Origin: Klenkia taihuensis
GTDB lineage: Bacteria; Actinomycetota; Actinomycetes; Mycobacteriales; Geodermatophilaceae
Length of the DNA stretch: 64,000 nt
Reading direction: 5' to 3'
NCBI RefSeq assembly: GCF_900112525.1
Contig: NZ_FOMD01000001.1
Coordinates: forward strand, 310,001-374,000
In this document: one piece after another, positions 834-9,836 of the stretch
Layout of the letters: each line of letters starts with the position of its first letter
How positions within the stretch are numbered: the first letter of the stretch is position 1
The notes under the pieces: model-generated
The model's database searches: none
The model's input: only the letters and a program-made list of their open reading frames with translations
Told to the model about the DNA's origin: nothing
Translations under genes and position numbers: made by a program

Positions 834-2434
834 GAGGGCACCGCGGTGCGGACGGGCAGCGAGACGGCGAACTCCGCGCCCGGTCCGGGCCGCACCGACA
901 CCGTGCCGCCGTTGCGCTTCACCGCCTGCGCGACGAGCGCGAGGCCGAGACCCTGGCCGGTGGCCTTGGTGGTCCAGCCGCGGCGGAACACCTGGTCGGG
1001 GTCGTCGACGCCGGGCCCGGTGTCCTCGACCCGCAGCTCGAGGCGGCCGTCGGCCTGCCACAGGGACAGCTGCACCTCGCGGGGCGGGTCGCCGGCCAGC
1101 GCGGCGTCGATGGCGTTGTCCAGGAGGTTGCCGACGACGGTCACCAGGTCCCCGCCCGGGATGCCGGTGGCGCCGACCGAGGTGGCCGGGTCGATCTCCA
1201 GGGTCACGCCCCGCTCGTGCGCGGTGGCCGCCTTGCCCAGCAGCAGCGCGGCCAGCACCGGCTCCTCGACCGCCTCGACCACCCGGTCGGTGAGCCGCTG
1301 GGCCACCGCGAGCTCGGCGGTGGCGAACTCGACGGCCTCCTCGGTGCGGCCGAGCTCGACCAGCGACACCGTGGTGTGCAGCCGGTTGGCCGCCTCGTGG
1401 GCCTGCGAGCGCAGCGACTCGGCGAAGGCGCGCACGCTGTCCAGCTCACCGGTGAGGGCCTGCAGGTCGGTGTGGTCGCGCAGGGTCACCACCGCGCCGA
1501 CCGACCGGCCCTTGGGGGTGGCCGGCATCTGGCTGACCACCAGCACCCGGTCGCCGCTGACGTGCACCTCGTCGACGGCCAGCCGCTGCTGGGACAGGGT
1601 GCCGGCCAGCTCGGGGGACAGCCCCAGCTCGGTGACGTGCCGCCCGGCGACGTCGCCCTCGAGCCCGAGCAGCCGCCGGGCCTCGTCGTTGACCAGCTGC
1701 ACCCGCCGGTCGCCGTCCAGCAGCAGCAGGCCCTCGCGGACGGCGTGCAGCACCGCGTCGTAGTACTCGAGCATCCGGGCCAGCGGCTGCGCGCCCAGGC
1801 CGTGGGTCTGCCGGCGCAGCCGGCGGCTGATCAGCCAGCTGCCCAGCGCGCCGACGGCGAGGACGGCGACCGCGACCCCGAGGACGCCGGGCAGCGCGGC
1901 AGCGACGTCGTCCCCGATGGCGGTGACGGTGATGCCCACGCTGACCAGGGCGACGACGTCGCTGCTGCTGCCGACGGCGAAGATCGGGGCGACCGCGCGG
2001 ACCGAGGGGCCCAGGGTGCCGCTGTAGGTCTCGGTGAACGTGGTGCCCCGCAGCGCCCGGTCGATGCTGCCCCGGAACGGCTTGCCGATCTGCTCGGGGT
2101 CGGGGTGGGTGAACCGGGTGCGGTCGGGCGCCATGACGGTGATGAAGGACGTCGCGGTGTCGGCCCGGACCTGCTCCACGTAGGGCTGCAGCACCGCGGT
2201 GGGGTCGGGCTCCACGACGGCCTCGCGGACCAGGGGGGAGTCCGCGATCGTCTCGGCGATGCTGCGGGCCTGGTTGGCCGCGCGGTCCTCCACGGCACCG
2301 CGGGCGTCGGCGACGGCGGTCCAGCCCAGCGCGAGCACCACGACGACCAGCACGAGGGCCTGCAGACCCAGCAGCTGGCGGGCCAGGCTGCCGCGTTCTC
2401 GGCGGCTGCGGGCCAGCACGGCGGGGATGCGCAC
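830..2434 (-). CDS. Sensor histidine kinase, DcuS/CitA/DctS type
   Basis: A 534-residue membrane kinase starting at GTG 2434. A first membrane segment lies near residues 24-41 and a second near 181-202. The extracytoplasmic domain between them contains RFTHPDPEQIGKPF, very close to the ligand-binding signature of the DcuS/CitA sensors. A PAS region follows (about 225-325), then the unusual H-box of this family (SLRSQAHEAANRLHT, His346), the N-box GNLLDNAID (Asn440) and a glycine-rich ATP lid. It probably senses C4-dicarboxylates or citrate outside the membrane and phosphorylates the overlapping regulator. The start is not certain: a further 25 codons are open upstream, but they run into the promoter region. 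Confidence 0.88.
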   Translation of the reverse strand: MRIPAVLARSRRERGSLARQLLGLQALVLVVVVLALGWTAVADARGAVEDRAANQARSIAETIADSPLVREAVVEPDPTAVLQPYVEQVRADTATSFITVMAPDRTRFTHPDPEQIGKPFRGSIDRALRGTTFTETYSGTLGPSVRAVAPIFAVGSSSDVVALVSVGITVTAIGDDVAAALPGVLGVAVAVLAVGALGSWLISRRLRRQTHGLGAQPLARMLEYYDAVLHAVREGLLLLDGDRRVQLVNDEARRLLGLEGDVAGRHVTELGLSPELAGTLSQQRLAVDEVHVSGDRVLVVSQMPATPKGRSVGAVVTLRDHTDLQALTGELDSVRAFAESLRSQAHEAANRLHTTVSLVELGRTEEAVEFATAELAVAQRLTDRVVEAVEEPVLAALLLGKAATAHERGVTLEIDPATSVGATGIPGGDLVTVVGNLLDNAIDAALAGDPPREVQLSLWQADGRLELRVEDTGPGVDDPDQVFRRGWTTKATGQGLGLALVAQAVKRNGGTVSVRPGPGAEFAVSLPVRTAVPS

Positions 2435-2464
2435 GGGGGAAGTGTGCACGCAATGAACGCAACG

Positions 2465-2478
2465 GTGACCGGGGTCAC
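2465..2478. promoter_or_regulatory. CRP/GlxR-like binding site
   Basis: GTGACCGGGGTCAC is a perfect inverted repeat of GTGACC with a two-base spacer, fitting the GTGA-N6-TCAC core of CRP/GlxR regulators. It sits in the 107-base divergent region between the sensor kinase and dctA, 64 bases before the dctA start. Nearly the same sequence recurs at 21471, 52792 and 60030. The assignment to CRP is inference from the motif. Confidence 0.45.
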
Positions 2479-2541
2479 GCGGGGCGGCACGGTGATGACG
2501 TCGCCGCACCCGGCGACCCCGCCGACTCCACAGGAGCAGTC

Positions 2542-3942
2542 ATGGCCACCACCACCGACGCCGCAGCCGCGCCGCGGCACAAGCGCGACAAGACCCACTG
2601 GCTCTACATCGCGGTGATCGTCGCCGTCGTCGCCGGCATCGTCGTCGGGCTGGTGTTCCCGGACTTCGGCAAGGAGCTGAAGTGGCTGGGGACGCTCTTC
2701 GTCAACCTGATCAAGATGATCATCGCGCCGGTCATCTTCTGCACGATCGTCCTGGGCATCGGCGCCATCCGGAAGGCCACGCAGGTCGGCCGGATCGGTG
2801 GGCTCGCGCTCGGCTACTTCATCGCGATGTCGACCGTGGCGCTGTTCATCGGCCTGCTGGTGGGCAACGTCCTCCACCCGGGTGACGGCCTGCAGCTGAC
2901 CGACGAGGTGCGCGGTGCCGGCGCCGACCTGGTCAGCGAGTCGGCCGAGGGGGCCCCGGAGGGCACCACCGGATTCCTGCTCAGCCTGATCCCGACCACC
3001 CTGCTGTCCTCGCTGACCAGCGGGTCGGTGCTGCAGGCCCTGCTGGTCGCGCTGCTGGTGGGCTTCGCGCTGCAGGCCATGGGCAAGGCCGGTGCCCCGA
3101 TCCTCACCGGCATCGGCCACCTGCAGAAGCTCGTCTTCCGCATCCTCGCCATGATCATGTGGGTCGCCCCGATCGGTGCCTTCGGCGCGATCGCCGCGGT
3201 CGTCGGCGCCACCGGCGTCGACGCGCTGAAGAGCCTGGGCATCCTGATGCTGGGCTTCTACCTGACCTGCGCGGTGTTCGTCTTCGTCTTCCTCGGCACG
3301 ATCCTGCGGGTGGTCGTCGGGATCAACGTGTTCTCGTTCCTCAAGTACCTGGGCCGCGAGTACCTGCTGATCGTCTCCTCGTCCTCCTCGGAGACCGCGC
3401 TGCCCCGCCTCATCGCGAAGATGGAGCACGTCGGCGTCAGCAAGCCGGTCGCCGGAATCGTCGTGCCGACCGGGTACTCCTTCAACCTCGACGGCACCGC
3501 GATCTACCTGACCATGGCCTCGCTGTTCATCGCCGAGGCGCTGGGCGACCCGCTGAGCATCGGCGAGCAGATCGGCCTGCTGGTCTTCATGATCATCGCC
3601 TCGAAGGGTGCGGCCGGCGTGTCCGGCGCCGGCCTGGCCACCCTGGCCGGCGGCCTGCAGAGCCACCGGCCCGAGCTGCTGGACGGCGTCGGCCTCATCG
3701 TCGGCATCGACCGGTTCATGAGCGAGGCCCGCGCGGTCACCAACTTCTCCGGCAACGCCATCGCCACGATGCTGGTGGCCACCTGGACCAGGGAGCTGGA
3801 CCGCGAGCAGATGACGGCCGTGCTGGCCGGCGAGCGTCCCTTCGACGAGACCACGATGCTCGACGACGGCCACGCCGCCCCGGACGTCGAGGACGCCGGC
3901 GACCAGCGCCGCGAGCTCGCGGGGGCAGCCACCACCCGCTGA
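2542..3942 (+). CDS. dctA: C4-dicarboxylate:cation symporter DctA
   Basis: A 466-residue member of the dicarboxylate/amino acid:cation symporter (DAACS) family, an inner-membrane carrier that takes up succinate, fumarate and malate with protons or sodium. Hallmarks are the serine-rich re-entrant loop SSSSSETALPRL and the following SFNLDGTAIYLT motif, with about eight hydrophobic segments and a charged cytoplasmic tail. The start ATG is preceded by AGGAG at the right distance. It is divergent from the DcuS-like two-component pair, which most likely induces it. A GltP-type glutamate carrier is the alternative, but the paired regulator favours dicarboxylates. Confidence 0.9.
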   Translation: MATTTDAAAAPRHKRDKTHWLYIAVIVAVVAGIVVGLVFPDFGKELKWLGTLFVNLIKMIIAPVIFCTIVLGIGAIRKATQVGRIGGLALGYFIAMSTVALFIGLLVGNVLHPGDGLQLTDEVRGAGADLVSESAEGAPEGTTGFLLSLIPTTLLSSLTSGSVLQALLVALLVGFALQAMGKAGAPILTGIGHLQKLVFRILAMIMWVAPIGAFGAIAAVVGATGVDALKSLGILMLGFYLTCAVFVFVFLGTILRVVVGINVFSFLKYLGREYLLIVSSSSSETALPRLIAKMEHVGVSKPVAGIVVPTGYSFNLDGTAIYLTMASLFIAEALGDPLSIGEQIGLLVFMIIASKGAAGVSGAGLATLAGGLQSHRPELLDGVGLIVGIDRFMSEARAVTNFSGNAIATMLVATWTRELDREQMTAVLAGERPFDETTMLDDGHAAPDVEDAGDQRRELAGAATTR

Positions 3943-4978: not shown

Positions 4979-5080
4979 GCCTTGAGCTGGCCTCGCGAAC
5001 TGGCCGTTCACAACGGGCCCGGGCCCCCCGAGACTCGCTCCAGGACCGGCCGCACGGGCCGGCGAAGGGGGGAGGACGCC

Positions 5081-6373
5081 GTGGCGAGCAGCACCGCACA
5101 GCGCGTCTGCGTGGTCGGCGCCGGCGCGGCCGGGCTGGAGGCGGTCCGGGTCTTCCGGGACGCCGGGCACGAAGTGGTCGCGTACGAGCGCGGCGACCGG
5201 GCCGGCGGGCACTGGCACACCGACTACGAGGCGCTGCACCTGATCACGCCGCGGGACGTCTCCTGCTTCGACGGCGTGCCGATGCCGTCGTCCTACCCGC
5301 TGTTCCCCAGCCGCGAGCAGGTGGTCGCCTACCTCGACGCGTTCGCCGCCGACCACGGCCTGCTCGAACACGTCCGCCTCGGCACCGAGGTCACCGCGGT
5401 GACCAGCCCGGACGACGGCGTCTCCGGCTGGGACGTGACCACCGACGGCGGCACCGAGCGGTTCGACGCCGTGGTCGTCGCCAACGGCCACCACTGGGAC
5501 CCCAGGCTCCCGGCCGTCGCCGAGGGGTTCACCGGCCGCTCGCTGCACTCCTCGCAGTACCGGTCGGTCGCCGACGTCGAGGGCCGCCGGGTGCTCGTGG
5601 TCGGGGCCGGCAACAGCGGGTGCGACCTCGCCGTCGACGCCGCCAACGCCCGGCTGGACGTGTCGATCGCGATGCGGCACGGGCAGGTGTTCCAGCCCAA
5701 GACCTTCTTCGGCCGGGGCCGCAACCAGCTGCCGTTCCTGGCCAAGCTCCCGCCGTGGGCCGCCGAGCGGGTGCAGCGCGCCCTGGTGCGGGTCTCGGTG
5801 GGCACGCACGCCGACTACCCGGGGCTGCAGCCCCCGGTCACCCGCAACCTCAACGAGCAGCTGCCGGTCGTCAACGACCTGCTCCTCTACTGGCTGCAGC
5901 ACGGCCGGATCACCGCCCGCACCGGTGTGGTCGGGGCCCACGACCGCACGGTCGACTTCGCCGACGGCACCAGTGCCGAGTTCGACACCGTGCTGTGGGC
6001 GACCGGCTTCCGGGTCAGCCTGCCGTTCCTGGCGCCGGACCAGCTGACCTGGTCCGGCGGTGCCCCGCTGCGGGTGGGCGGCATGGTCGTCCCGGTCGGC
6101 ACCTCCCGGCTCTACACGGTGGGGCTGGCCAGCCCGCGCGGTGCGCAGTTCCCGGTGTTCAGCGCACAGTCCGCCCTCGCGGTCCGGCTGCTCGGGCTCG
6201 AGGGACGCACCGACCGGCCGCTGGCAGAGCTGCTGCTGGCCGCCGGGGCGCCGACCGACCAGGTCGACGTGCTCCGCCCGCTCTGGACCCAGCAGATGGC
6301 CCGGGCGACAGCGGTGCTGGACGCCGTCCGCCCGGCGAGCCCCGCCCGCACCGCGCAGGAGGTCCCCCGATGA
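5081..6373 (+). CDS. Flavin-containing monooxygenase (FMO/Baeyer-Villiger type)
   Basis: A 430-residue FAD- and NADPH-dependent oxygenase. GAGAAG at residues 13-18 is the FAD-binding Rossmann motif, FTGRSLHSSQY at about 150-160 is the FMO fingerprint FxGxxxHxxxY, GAGNSG at 175-180 binds NADPH, and ATGF late in the protein is the third family motif. The GTG start at 5081 has GGGGAGG upstream; a longer reading frame back to 4982 has no homology and lacks a ribosome site. Its stop overlaps the next start as ATGA, so it is in an operon with the dehydrogenase. It probably oxidises a ketone, amine or sulfide taken up by the binding protein encoded downstream. Confidence 0.85.
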   Translation: MASSTAQRVCVVGAGAAGLEAVRVFRDAGHEVVAYERGDRAGGHWHTDYEALHLITPRDVSCFDGVPMPSSYPLFPSREQVVAYLDAFAADHGLLEHVRLGTEVTAVTSPDDGVSGWDVTTDGGTERFDAVVVANGHHWDPRLPAVAEGFTGRSLHSSQYRSVADVEGRRVLVVGAGNSGCDLAVDAANARLDVSIAMRHGQVFQPKTFFGRGRNQLPFLAKLPPWAAERVQRALVRVSVGTHADYPGLQPPVTRNLNEQLPVVNDLLLYWLQHGRITARTGVVGAHDRTVDFADGTSAEFDTVLWATGFRVSLPFLAPDQLTWSGGAPLRVGGMVVPVGTSRLYTVGLASPRGAQFPVFSAQSALAVRLLGLEGRTDRPLAELLLAAGAPTDQVDVLRPLWTQQMARATAVLDAVRPASPARTAQEVPR

Positions 6374-7080
6374 GCGACACCGTGCTGGTCACCGGGGCCG
6401 CGAGCGGGATGGGCCGGGCGCTGGTGCAGCGGCTGGTCGGCGCCGGCTGGCGGGTGCTGGCCCTCGACCGGGCCGCCGACGCGCTGGGTGCGCTGGCCGG
6501 CGAGCTGGGCGAGCAGCTGGTGCCGGTGCCCGTCGACGTCACCGACCGGGCCGGGGTCACGGCCGCGGTCGACCGGCTCGTCGCCGGGCAGCGGCTCACC
6601 GGCGTGGTCAACTGCGCGGGCATCTACCCGCCCACCCGGCTCGACGACTTCACCGACGAGACCTACCGCGCGGTCTTCGACGTCAACGTGCTCGGCACGT
6701 TGGTGGTCACCGCCGCCGCGGTCCCGCACCTGCGTGCGGCCGGCGGCGGCGCCGTCGTCAACTTCGCCTCCGTCGACGCCTTCGCCGTCTCCCCGGGCCA
6801 GCTGCTCTACAGCGCGTCCAAGGCAGCGGTGCTGTCGCTGACCAAGTCCCTCGCCATCGAGCTGGCCCCCGACCGGGTCGTGGTGAACGCCGTCGCGCCG
6901 GGCTGGGTCGACACCCCGGGCAACGCCGCCACCGGCCGGATGGCCGAGGCCGCCGCCGGCATCCCGCTGGGCCGGGTGGCCGACCCCGACGAGGTCGCCG
7001 TCTGGGTCCAGCGGCTGCTGGAACCGGGCTACGTCACCGGCGAGACCGTGGTCATCGCCGGCGGCTCGGCGATGCGCTGA
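6370..7080 (+). CDS. Short-chain dehydrogenase/reductase (SDR)
   Basis: A 236-residue classical SDR. TGAASGMG at residues 9-16 binds NAD(P)H, NCAG at 81-84 is the structural motif, and the catalytic set is Ser134, Tyr147 and Lys151 (YSASK). The C-terminal end WVQRLLEPGYVTGETVVIAGG is typical for the family. Its ATG overlaps the monooxygenase stop, so the enzymes are co-translated; an alcohol-to-ketone step before or after the oxygenase is likely. Substrate cannot be read from the sequence. Confidence 0.88.
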   Translation: MSDTVLVTGAASGMGRALVQRLVGAGWRVLALDRAADALGALAGELGEQLVPVPVDVTDRAGVTAAVDRLVAGQRLTGVVNCAGIYPPTRLDDFTDETYRAVFDVNVLGTLVVTAAAVPHLRAAGGGAVVNFASVDAFAVSPGQLLYSASKAAVLSLTKSLAIELAPDRVVVNAVAPGWVDTPGNAATGRMAEAAAGIPLGRVADPDEVAVWVQRLLEPGYVTGETVVIAGGSAMR

Positions 7081-7114: not shown

Positions 7115-8452
7115 ATGCGCACCACCCACCTCCGCGCCGGTGCGCTCGCCGCCGCGACCCTGCTGGCGCTGTCCGCCTGCGGCGGCGGCTCGGACGACGG
7201 CGACCCCGGAGCAGGCAGCGCGGCCGGCTCCGACGGCGCGAAGCAGGTCAACGTCTACGGCGCCGACGGCAACATGAACAACGGTCTGGGTGAGGACTTC
7301 GCCAGCTCTCCCGGCGCGCTGGCCGGCATGCGCGGCACGGTGCTGCTCACCGACGTCGGGCAGGACTTCCGCGACCGGCTGCTGGCCCTCGACCCGTCGC
7401 TGACCAACTTCAACACCGCCGCCGAGACCTACGACGCGGTGGTCATCGCCTCGCTCGCCGCTCAGCTGGCCGGCAGCAACCAGGCCACCGTCTGGGCGCC
7501 CTACGTCAACGGGGTGACCTTCGGCGGGGAGACCTGCACCGACTTCGAGTCGTGCAACGCGATCATCCAGGCCGGCGGCAACCCCGACTACGACGGCGTC
7601 AACGGCCCGCTGGCCTTCACCGAGCCCGGTGAGCCGTCGGTGGCGAGCTTCGCCATCGAGAGCTTCACCGAGGACAACCAGATCGACCTGGACGCCCGCG
7701 AATTCGTGCAGGCCGGCGACCTGGCCGACGCCGCCACCGACGAGGGCCCGGCACCGGCCGCGCCGGGCACCACGGGGGCACCGCTGGTGATCGGCAGCCT
7801 CACCCCGCTGACCGGCAGCCTCTCCTACCAGGGACCGCAGCAGATCGCGGCTCTGGAACTCGCGGTCGGCGACGTCAACGCCGCCGGCGGGGTGCTGGGC
7901 AGCCCGGTGCAGCTGAACACCGGTGACTCCGGGGACGCCAGCACCGACACCGCGACCCAGACCGCCGACCGGCTGCTGCAGTCGGGCGCGAACGTGGTCA
8001 TCGGGGCGTCGTCCTCGGGCGTGACGCTGACCGTCATCGACGCGATCACCGGTGCCGGTGTCGCGATGATCAGCCCGGCCAGCACCTCCGACCGGCTGAC
8101 CGACTACCCGGACCAGGGTCTGTTCTTCCGCACCGTGCCGCCGGACACCCTGCAGGCCCGGGCGCTGGCCGACCTGATCGGCGGCGACGGCAACAACACC
8201 GTCGGGATCCTCGCGCTCAACGACCCCTACGGCACCGGGCTGGCCGACAACACCGCCGCCGACCTGGTCGCCGACGGGCTGTCCGAGGACTCGATCCGCT
8301 CGCTCGTCTACGACCCCACGGCGGCGAACTTCGACAGCGAGGTCTCGCAGATGGTCGAGTTCAACCCCGACGCCATCCTGGTCATCGGGTTCGAGGAGAC
8401 CAGCCGGATCATCCAGGGCCTCAACGCGCAGGGCATCGGCCCGCAGCGCTGA
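7115..8452 (+). CDS. LivJ-type solute-binding lipoprotein with swapped halves (circular permutation)
   Basis: A 445-residue secreted lipoprotein: signal peptide with lipobox LSAC (Cys22), a Gly/Asp/Ser linker, then two blocks. Residues about 44-200 look like the C-terminal part of a LivJ/Peripla_BP_6 protein (from VNVYGADGN onward), and residues about 223-445 look like the N-terminal part (LVIGSLTPLTGSLSYQGPQ to the end IIQGLNAQGIGPQR). In ordinary family members the second block comes first, directly after the signal peptide. The old ends are joined by a Pro/Ala-rich linker near residues 201-222, and the cut falls where the chain normally crosses between lobes. AAGGAG precedes the ATG. It follows the monooxygenase and dehydrogenase, but no permease or ATPase genes are adjacent. 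Confidence 0.8.
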   Translation: MRTTHLRAGALAAATLLALSACGGGSDDGDPGAGSAAGSDGAKQVNVYGADGNMNNGLGEDFASSPGALAGMRGTVLLTDVGQDFRDRLLALDPSLTNFNTAAETYDAVVIASLAAQLAGSNQATVWAPYVNGVTFGGETCTDFESCNAIIQAGGNPDYDGVNGPLAFTEPGEPSVASFAIESFTEDNQIDLDAREFVQAGDLADAATDEGPAPAAPGTTGAPLVIGSLTPLTGSLSYQGPQQIAALELAVGDVNAAGGVLGSPVQLNTGDSGDASTDTATQTADRLLQSGANVVIGASSSGVTLTVIDAITGAGVAMISPASTSDRLTDYPDQGLFFRTVPPDTLQARALADLIGGDGNNTVGILALNDPYGTGLADNTAADLVADGLSEDSIRSLVYDPTAANFDSEVSQMVEFNPDAILVIGFEETSRIIQGLNAQGIGPQR

Positions 8453-9365: not shown

Positions 9366-9836
9366 TCAGAGCAGGCCGAGCCGCTTGGTGAGTGCGGCGA
9401 CCCGGTTGCGCGGCCCGACGATGCTCACCGCGCGGCAGGCCAGGTCCTCCCCCGCGGTGCCGGCCAGCTCGGCGAGGTACTCGTCGTAGACCCGGTGCGT
9501 CTGCGCCGCCCGGGGCATGTCCACGACCAGGACGCCGGGCGACCCCACCGCCTTGGCCCGGACGGCGGCCAGCTCGTGCGCCGGGGCGGTCAGCACGCTG
9601 CACCCCGCCCACGGCAGGCCCGGGTGGTGGGCGCCGTCGGCGTCCGGACCGCCGTGGGCCAGCAGGTGGTCGACGGCCGCGCCGGTGGCCGCCGCGGTGC
9701 ACGCGACGGCGTTGACCATCTCCCCGGCCGGCACGCCGGCGTCCACGACCACCACCCACTTCAGCCGGGCGTTGCGGGTGGGCTCGGCCGTCACGACCTC
9801 GTCGGCGGTGAAGGCGGGTGCGTCGTGCGTCGTCAT
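9366..9836 (-). CDS. DUF2000 family protein
   Basis: A 156-residue cytoplasmic protein with the DUF2000 fold: the N-terminal strand LKWVVVVD, the region GAAVDHLLAHGG and the conserved end RVYDEYLAEL. The biochemical role of the family is not established; members are often encoded beside Lrp-type regulators. That is the case here: it is divergent from a Lrp/AsnC gene with a 78-base shared promoter region containing a perfect inverted repeat, so the regulator very likely controls it. Confidence 0.75.
   Translation of the reverse strand: MTTHDAPAFTADEVVTAEPTRNARLKWVVVVDAGVPAGEMVNAVACTAAATGAAVDHLLAHGGPDADGAHHPGLPWAGCSVLTAPAHELAAVRAKAVGSPGVLVVDMPRAAQTHRVYDEYLAELAGTAGEDLACRAVSIVGPRNRVAALTKRLGLL

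Follow-up and report, generated by a model that had tools for sequence, protein, structure and literature searches.

The closest precedent for the gene described here is a naturally permuted binding protein of Treponema pallidum. Tp0684 (TpMglB-2) is reported to be a solved, naturally permuted, tethered and two-lobed type I ligand-binding protein (LBP) of an ATP-binding cassette (ABC) system that binds glucose with a change of shape (PMC4990184). Its authors proposed the class 'Type Ic / Cluster Bc' and raised tethering as a possible cause of the permutation (PMC4990184). We analyzed a solute-binding lipoprotein gene at 7115..8452 (plus strand) in a 64,000-nucleotide stretch of Klenkia taihuensis (assembly GCF_900112525.1, contig NZ_FOMD01000001.1, positions 310,001 to 374,000; hereafter the window) and found that the two halves of its product were in swapped order. 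TpMglB-2, a member of the glucose/galactose (MglB) family, carries its first three N-lobe strands at the C-terminus and keeps the C lobe in order, whereas the window protein is Liv-type, has about half of its chain (residues 223-445) moved, and is cut elsewhere. The window protein therefore shares with Type Ic / Cluster Bc, as described there, the property of being a naturally permuted type I LBP, but not the three-strand cut or the relationship to MglB. The literature searched, outside subscription journals and preprints, yielded no Liv-type binding protein that we recognised as naturally permuted.

DNA methyltransferases have been permuted repeatedly. Permutation intermediates are documented within this enzyme family, and duplication and fission-fusion are the standard models of permutation (PMC3320104). 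The likeness to the present case is permutation within one family; the methyltransferases are unrelated enzymes and have no retained transporter neighbourhood. Among binding proteins, LivJ/LivK and Atu2422 (1z15, 2lbp, 3ipc) are like the window protein in sequence and in the fold of its larger half, and differ from it in having the canonical order.

The window gene very probably encodes a lipid-anchored type I (Peripla_BP_6-like) binding protein that is naturally permuted and has kept its function, in a family in which permutation arose in place at least twice. At the level of sequence, we found the swapped order, in-frame junctions, broad conservation, purifying selection, close relatives that are unpermuted, and a Liv-type ABC transporter next to many other members of the family. 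The parts of the gene are as follows (the ribosome-binding site and the signal peptide are predictions from sequence).

7115..8452, plus strand: circularly permuted solute-binding lipoprotein gene (type A, see below), 445 amino acids
7103..7109, plus strand: putative ribosome-binding-site-like GAAGGAG
7115..7180, plus strand: signal peptide and lipobox LSA-C (Cys22)
7181..7243, plus strand: post-lipobox linker rich in Gly, Ser, Asp and Ala, residues 23-43, low model confidence
7244..7696, plus strand: residues 44-194, equivalent to the C-terminal part of unpermuted relatives; includes the invariant Asp51-Gly52 and the cysteines Cys141/Cys147
7697..7780, plus strand: junction of the old C-terminus and the old N-terminus, residues 195-222, containing a Pro/Ala-rich linker
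7781..8449, plus strand: residues 223-445, equivalent to the N-terminal part of unpermuted relatives

Known families and structures matched the second half of the protein. Peripla_BP_6 (PF13458, positions 2-217 of 343) matched residues 224-443 only, with 111.2 bits against a gathering score of 31.7; the first half alone reached only E 0.057 against Pfam. The NCBIfam matches of note were to the second half, with a weak one (E 0.032) over residues 7-55, and for every match listed in the PDB (60 of 135) the best stretch lay within residues 215-441. A continuous, unpermuted full-length match was absent from Pfam, NCBIfam and, among those 60 of 135 matches, the PDB.

A profile built from unpermuted proteins matched the window protein in two blocks of reversed order. 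An earlier note on this DNA had claimed swapped halves and a natural join between AQGIGPQR, the C-terminus, and VNVYGADGN, which starts at residue 45 (nucleotide 7247); LVIGSLTPLTG starts at residue 224 (nucleotide 7784). The profile came from 24 native proteins and had 423 positions. Its positions 266-418 matched residues 41-194 (168 bits, independent E value 1.4e-53) and its positions 31-268 matched residues 207-444 (303 bits); the two ranges meet at 266-268, indicating that almost nothing was lost or doubled at the cut. When the halves were rejoined in native order and residues 1-43 removed, the protein gave a single match to profile positions 48-418 of 423 with 482 bits. The summed score changed little (467 bits unaltered, 482 rejoined), and the evidence of permutation is the order of the two profile blocks rather than that sum. 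Ten other rotations, including one that used this cut (residue 218) and kept residues 23-43, each gave two or three pieces; a single match thus requires both the correct cut and removal of the post-lipobox linker. Rejoining also lengthened the Peripla_BP_6 match to 2-299 of 343 (from 111.2 to 118.8 bits), turned ANF_receptor into one match over 4-349 of 353 (from 75.3 to 79.0 bits), and lengthened the match to 4gnr. As a type I LBP (Peripla_BP_6/ANF_receptor), the protein has the score and both profile parts of the class in other than the canonical chain order.

The remaining parts of the gene were also as the earlier note had described them. The open frame 7115-8452 (plus strand) comes with the signal peptide, lipobox and ribosome site that it had called intact, and the Pro/Ala-rich linker that it had proposed to bridge the old ends lies in the junction, residues 195-222. 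The permutation-aware comparison and the structure prediction that it had suggested gave, respectively, a single alignment of the rejoined halves and a confident model (predicted local distance difference test score, pLDDT, 89 overall, and below 50 for residues 1-40). In structure comparison most of the first half stayed unaligned, and the permutation is not directly visible this way. The circular permutation itself is close to certain.

Two different cuts were found among the permuted relatives. In type A (the window's family and families f3 and f87) the protein ends near ...GIGPQR and the domain begins ...VNVYGADGN. In type B (families f17, f30 and f71) the C-terminus, ...VYGxDGNxGNALGENFDAG, lies about 20 residues further along, and the domain begins ...ELEGMKGTT. 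Family f3 may perhaps be Micromonosporaceae. In family f30, 51 of 150 genomes had the type B order at full length or nearly so (a hand count of the listing), and the remaining 34 genomes with a match showed the native-type pattern only. A further 61 rows, some of which repeat earlier loci, comprised 18 native and 43 permuted proteins, and all of the latter that included the end had the type B cut.

The cuts flank a strand and loop with an invariant Asp-Gly, which stands at the start of the chain in type A (Asp51), at its end in type B (Asp446 in locus L085), and within the chain in native proteins (Asp278 of locus L107). In the profile alignment the invariant Asp pairs with Asp226 of the Atu2422 chain (hand count). 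We take site 226 to be the ligand-pocket acid (Glu226 in LivJ), located in lobe 2. The cysteines of CTDFESC (residues 141 and 147; window 7535-7555) were likewise invariant across the type A, native and type B alignments, and may perhaps form a disulfide outside the cytoplasm.

Unpermuted relatives of the window protein stand beside Liv-type ABC genes. These Peripla_BP_6 lipoproteins (for example those of loci L107, L081 and L106, from the same taxonomic order) align with both halves end to end (L081 with 55% and 47% identity for the two halves), and share with the window protein a lipobox-like motif, the invariant Asp-Gly and the Cys pair. They have the same transporter genes in the same orientation as most of the Geodermatophilaceae type A loci read. 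They differ in the order of the halves and hence in the position of the anchor on the fold. By pattern, a lipobox-like motif was present in 56 of 57 type A, 48 of 55 native and 41 of 49 type B rows (some rows repeated). Because the native relatives also look like lipoproteins, tethering alone does not explain the permutation.

Where the transporter genes were present, the permuted gene stood at the native address, which argues for a change in place and for kept function. The neighbours at native L107 and at type A L009 are four genes, arranged tail-to-tail with the binding-protein gene, in which Pfam identified two ATPases and two Liv-type permeases; at the type B locus L085 Pfam confirmed the two partner ATPases. 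Among loci with more than 2.5 kb of 3' flank, 29 of 32 native loci had partner genes (26 convergent, 3 upstream), as did all 6 type B loci (4 convergent and 2 upstream, of which one was recognised from a single gene) and 11 of 20 type A loci, all convergent (11 of 18 when the window lineage was excluded). Of the nine type A loci without a partner, seven belong to family f3 and two hold Klenkia orthologues of the window copy. The second copy in the same genome (on contig C3) adjoins Liv partner genes. One f3 genome, G676, combines a type A gene whose flanks, as far as read, hold no transporter with a native gene that has one nearby (L102 and L103, on contigs C25 and C9). At L009 (10379-11749, minus strand) and L107 (7676-8962, minus strand) the Liv-type permease next to the binding protein has CarboxypepD_reg before BPD_transp_2, an odd ABC-permease fusion.

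We propose that the permuted chain takes up the usual two-lobed 'Venus flytrap' fold, holds a small ligand between its lobes, and would deliver it to a Liv-type ABC importer. The cut would set the lipid anchor directly ahead of the strand and loop that contain the invariant Asp-Gly (Asp51), aligned to the LivJ-like pocket acid, and the tether would leave lobe 2 instead of lobe 1. The pocket role of the Asp-Gly site and the assignment of the lobes are assumptions taken over from LivJ. The permutation apparently arose next to the transporter without moving, on at least two occasions within the phylum and with different cuts; the probable route is a tandem duplication followed by fusion and loss of sequence from both ends. 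In many native proteins a GDGxL-like motif stands ahead of the first strand, and the type B junction has retained it, which fits a fused second copy that lost its signal peptide.

The window copy itself is a duplicate of the Klenkia lineage and is the last gene of a putative three-gene operon that begins with a flavin-binding monooxygenase-like (FMO) gene followed by a short-chain dehydrogenase/reductase (SDR) gene.

4982..6373, plus strand: FMO gene, first in the putative operon
6370..7080, plus strand: SDR gene, its ATG overlapping the FMO stop

The ATG of the binding-protein gene comes 34 bp after the SDR gene, and this short gap together with the overlap makes an operon likely. The duplicate also occurs in K. 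brasiliensis, K. terrae and genome G022, each time following FMO-like and SDR genes. All four lineage copies carry changes at seven positions where at least 85% of the remaining 95 rows agree; two of these positions lie in a LAFLGPP-like motif (LSYQGPQ in the window copy). Our best guess is that the window copy binds a new ligand, perhaps one processed by the FMO and SDR enzymes, and it probably serves such an FMO/SDR-related ligand through a transporter encoded elsewhere.

The same observations would fit a window copy that is an extracellular sensor or scavenger tied to the FMO-SDR pair rather than a transport binding protein. We consider this unlikely: the gene order is the same in four genomes, the seven altered positions are common to all four copies, and no Liv genes lie near the window copy, but that copy keeps the block order and the invariant Asp-Gly, and its same-genome paralogue adjoins transporter genes. 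Elsewhere in the window, at 836-3939, a sCache sensor-kinase-like gene and an SDF dicarboxylate symporter gene point away from each other, and a LysR gene and the FMO-SDR pair follow downstream; at 9369-9836 (minus strand) a gene for a DUF2000 protein adjoins a ZIP-like gene.

Types A and B did not form a single clade. We built a protein tree of 68 rows (25 of 57 type A, all 37 native and all 6 type B rows) and one of 96 rows (15 type A, 33 type B and 48 native, omitting repeated or near-identical new rows). A clade uniting A and B was rejected by both, with P values of the approximately unbiased test (p-AU) of 0.0001 and 0.024, respectively. It was also rejected by separate data, a 54-row tree of the partner ATPases (p-AU 0.00007) from which L082, L043-L045, repeats, some type A loci, and loci without long matches to both ATPases were excluded. 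In the 68-row tree the 25 type A rows and five native rows from the same order formed one clade (100/99), apart from type B; the same five native genes again joined type A in the 96-row tree (100/98), and the ATPases of type A loci grouped with those of the same five native loci (99/96). The ATPase partners of type B fell in two places (starred branches; L083 with seven native loci, 98/96). A quick 76-row ATPase tree, in which type B was on one side of a branch and type A was not, contained a bad fragment of L082 (branch length about 10) and was set aside on that account for the 54-row tree. Type A as one clade was not rejected: the tree constrained in this way scored better by 2.3 log units. 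With 96 rows, type A was one side of a weakly supported branch (57/9). A single clade of type B was not rejected either (p-AU 0.233 with 68 rows, 0.179 with 96 rows).

The rejection of an A+B clade in both the protein and the ATPase trees argues for at least two permutations in the family. As read from these trees, at least two would follow unless there was reversion to the native order or exchange of genes together with the transporter; three are possible. The two cuts are only about 20 residues apart and flank the same strand and loop, as would be expected of a single ancestral permutation in which an end segment of about 20 residues later slid across the ends and gave types A and B. We consider such a slide improbable, given the rejected clade and the five unpermuted same-order genes that join type A. 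In addition, no protein read had the segment at both ends, as judged by one motif pattern that missed the segment in 12 of 161 rows, some repeated; its nine double matches were all chance matches elsewhere. Given at least two separate events, the strand of the presumed pocket acid might be a hot spot, with two or possibly three in-place permutations there, all next to the same transporter, and a move of the anchor from lobe 1 to lobe 2 favored by selection as an adaptation of the tether geometry to a Liv-type importer rather than fixed by neutral chance, a proposal that we regard as possible and somewhat doubtful.

The permuted form was widespread and under purifying selection. Genome-wide searches covered the window's own phylum. 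In the window's own family, 80 of 96 genomes had a full-length copy in the window order (hand count of the listing), and the other 16 comprised 3 with partial copies, 7 with weak matches only, and 6 with none; permuted orthologues, which the earlier note had suggested looking for in related genomes, are thus common. Carriers of the window order include Klenkia brasiliensis, K. terrae, Blastococcus and Geodermatophilus. In the same scan a ninth locus, from Cryobacterium arcticum, had the native order. A search of the order (298 genomes) found full-length or nearly full-length permuted copies in 46 genomes from the window's family, in 45 from f3 and in one from f87. Scored by script, 100 relatives divided into 63 with the window order and 37 native. 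A search of 72,556 plasmid records, made irrespective of the order of the halves, gave 4 with a match of E 1e-15 or better; the top one, at 45%, came from Nonomuraea. The ratio of nonsynonymous to synonymous substitution rates (dN/dS) was 0.08-0.34 among close orthologues, and 0.08-0.32 when the window copy was compared with its orthologues in Klenkia, consistent with purifying selection. The swapped profile blocks, the many genomes and this selection together support the natural circular permutation that the earlier note had put forward; the family-wide permutation that it had listed as an alternative also holds, being the same event at a larger scale.

A broken or chimeric gene without function, which the unusual order of the halves might suggest, is very improbable in view of the open frame, signal peptide, lipobox, dN/dS values and confident model. 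An assembly or sequencing artefact that swapped the halves through a wrong join, the other alternative of the earlier note, could be proposed since swapped order is generally rare, and was rejected with near certainty by the same order in one open frame in many independent assemblies (80 of 96 family genomes, 45 of f3 and one of f87, single-contig assemblies included) and in the second copy in the same genome (at 69%).

Some observations weigh against in-place permutation with kept function. No fused tandem copy or split gene was found among the loci read, and the route of origin is accordingly our proposal; none of 117 loci had two copies, and the one tandem pair found later (L159; G755:C22, 7500-17500) consists of two type B genes, both already permuted. 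The dN/dS between the two copies in the window genome was 0.68, a value in which strong codon bias blurs dS. Type B could be one event or two. No Liv transporter was found in the flanks of the window copy, its two Klenkia orthologues or the seven type A loci of f3, so that a transport role of these rests on homology. The window copy lacks the adjoining permease and ATPase genes expected of a binding protein of a Liv/HAAT-type importer, and the invariant Asp-Gly is the one sign seen in it of a possible amino acid-like ligand.

In the literature searched, the glucose-binding protein of Treponema and its relatives was the sole naturally permuted binding protein found, and the present case is Liv-type and extends across several families of one phylum. 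The close unpermuted relatives, the second cut, and the Liv-type transporter beside many relatives (not beside the window copy) go beyond what the earlier note had seen. Pfam detects only half of such a protein, a blind spot for annotation. The unpermuted relatives beside the same transporter genes provide matched natural pairs for studying the effects of permutation on folding, closing and docking. If the separate origins are true, the two differently cut forms would be a case of parallel circular permutation.
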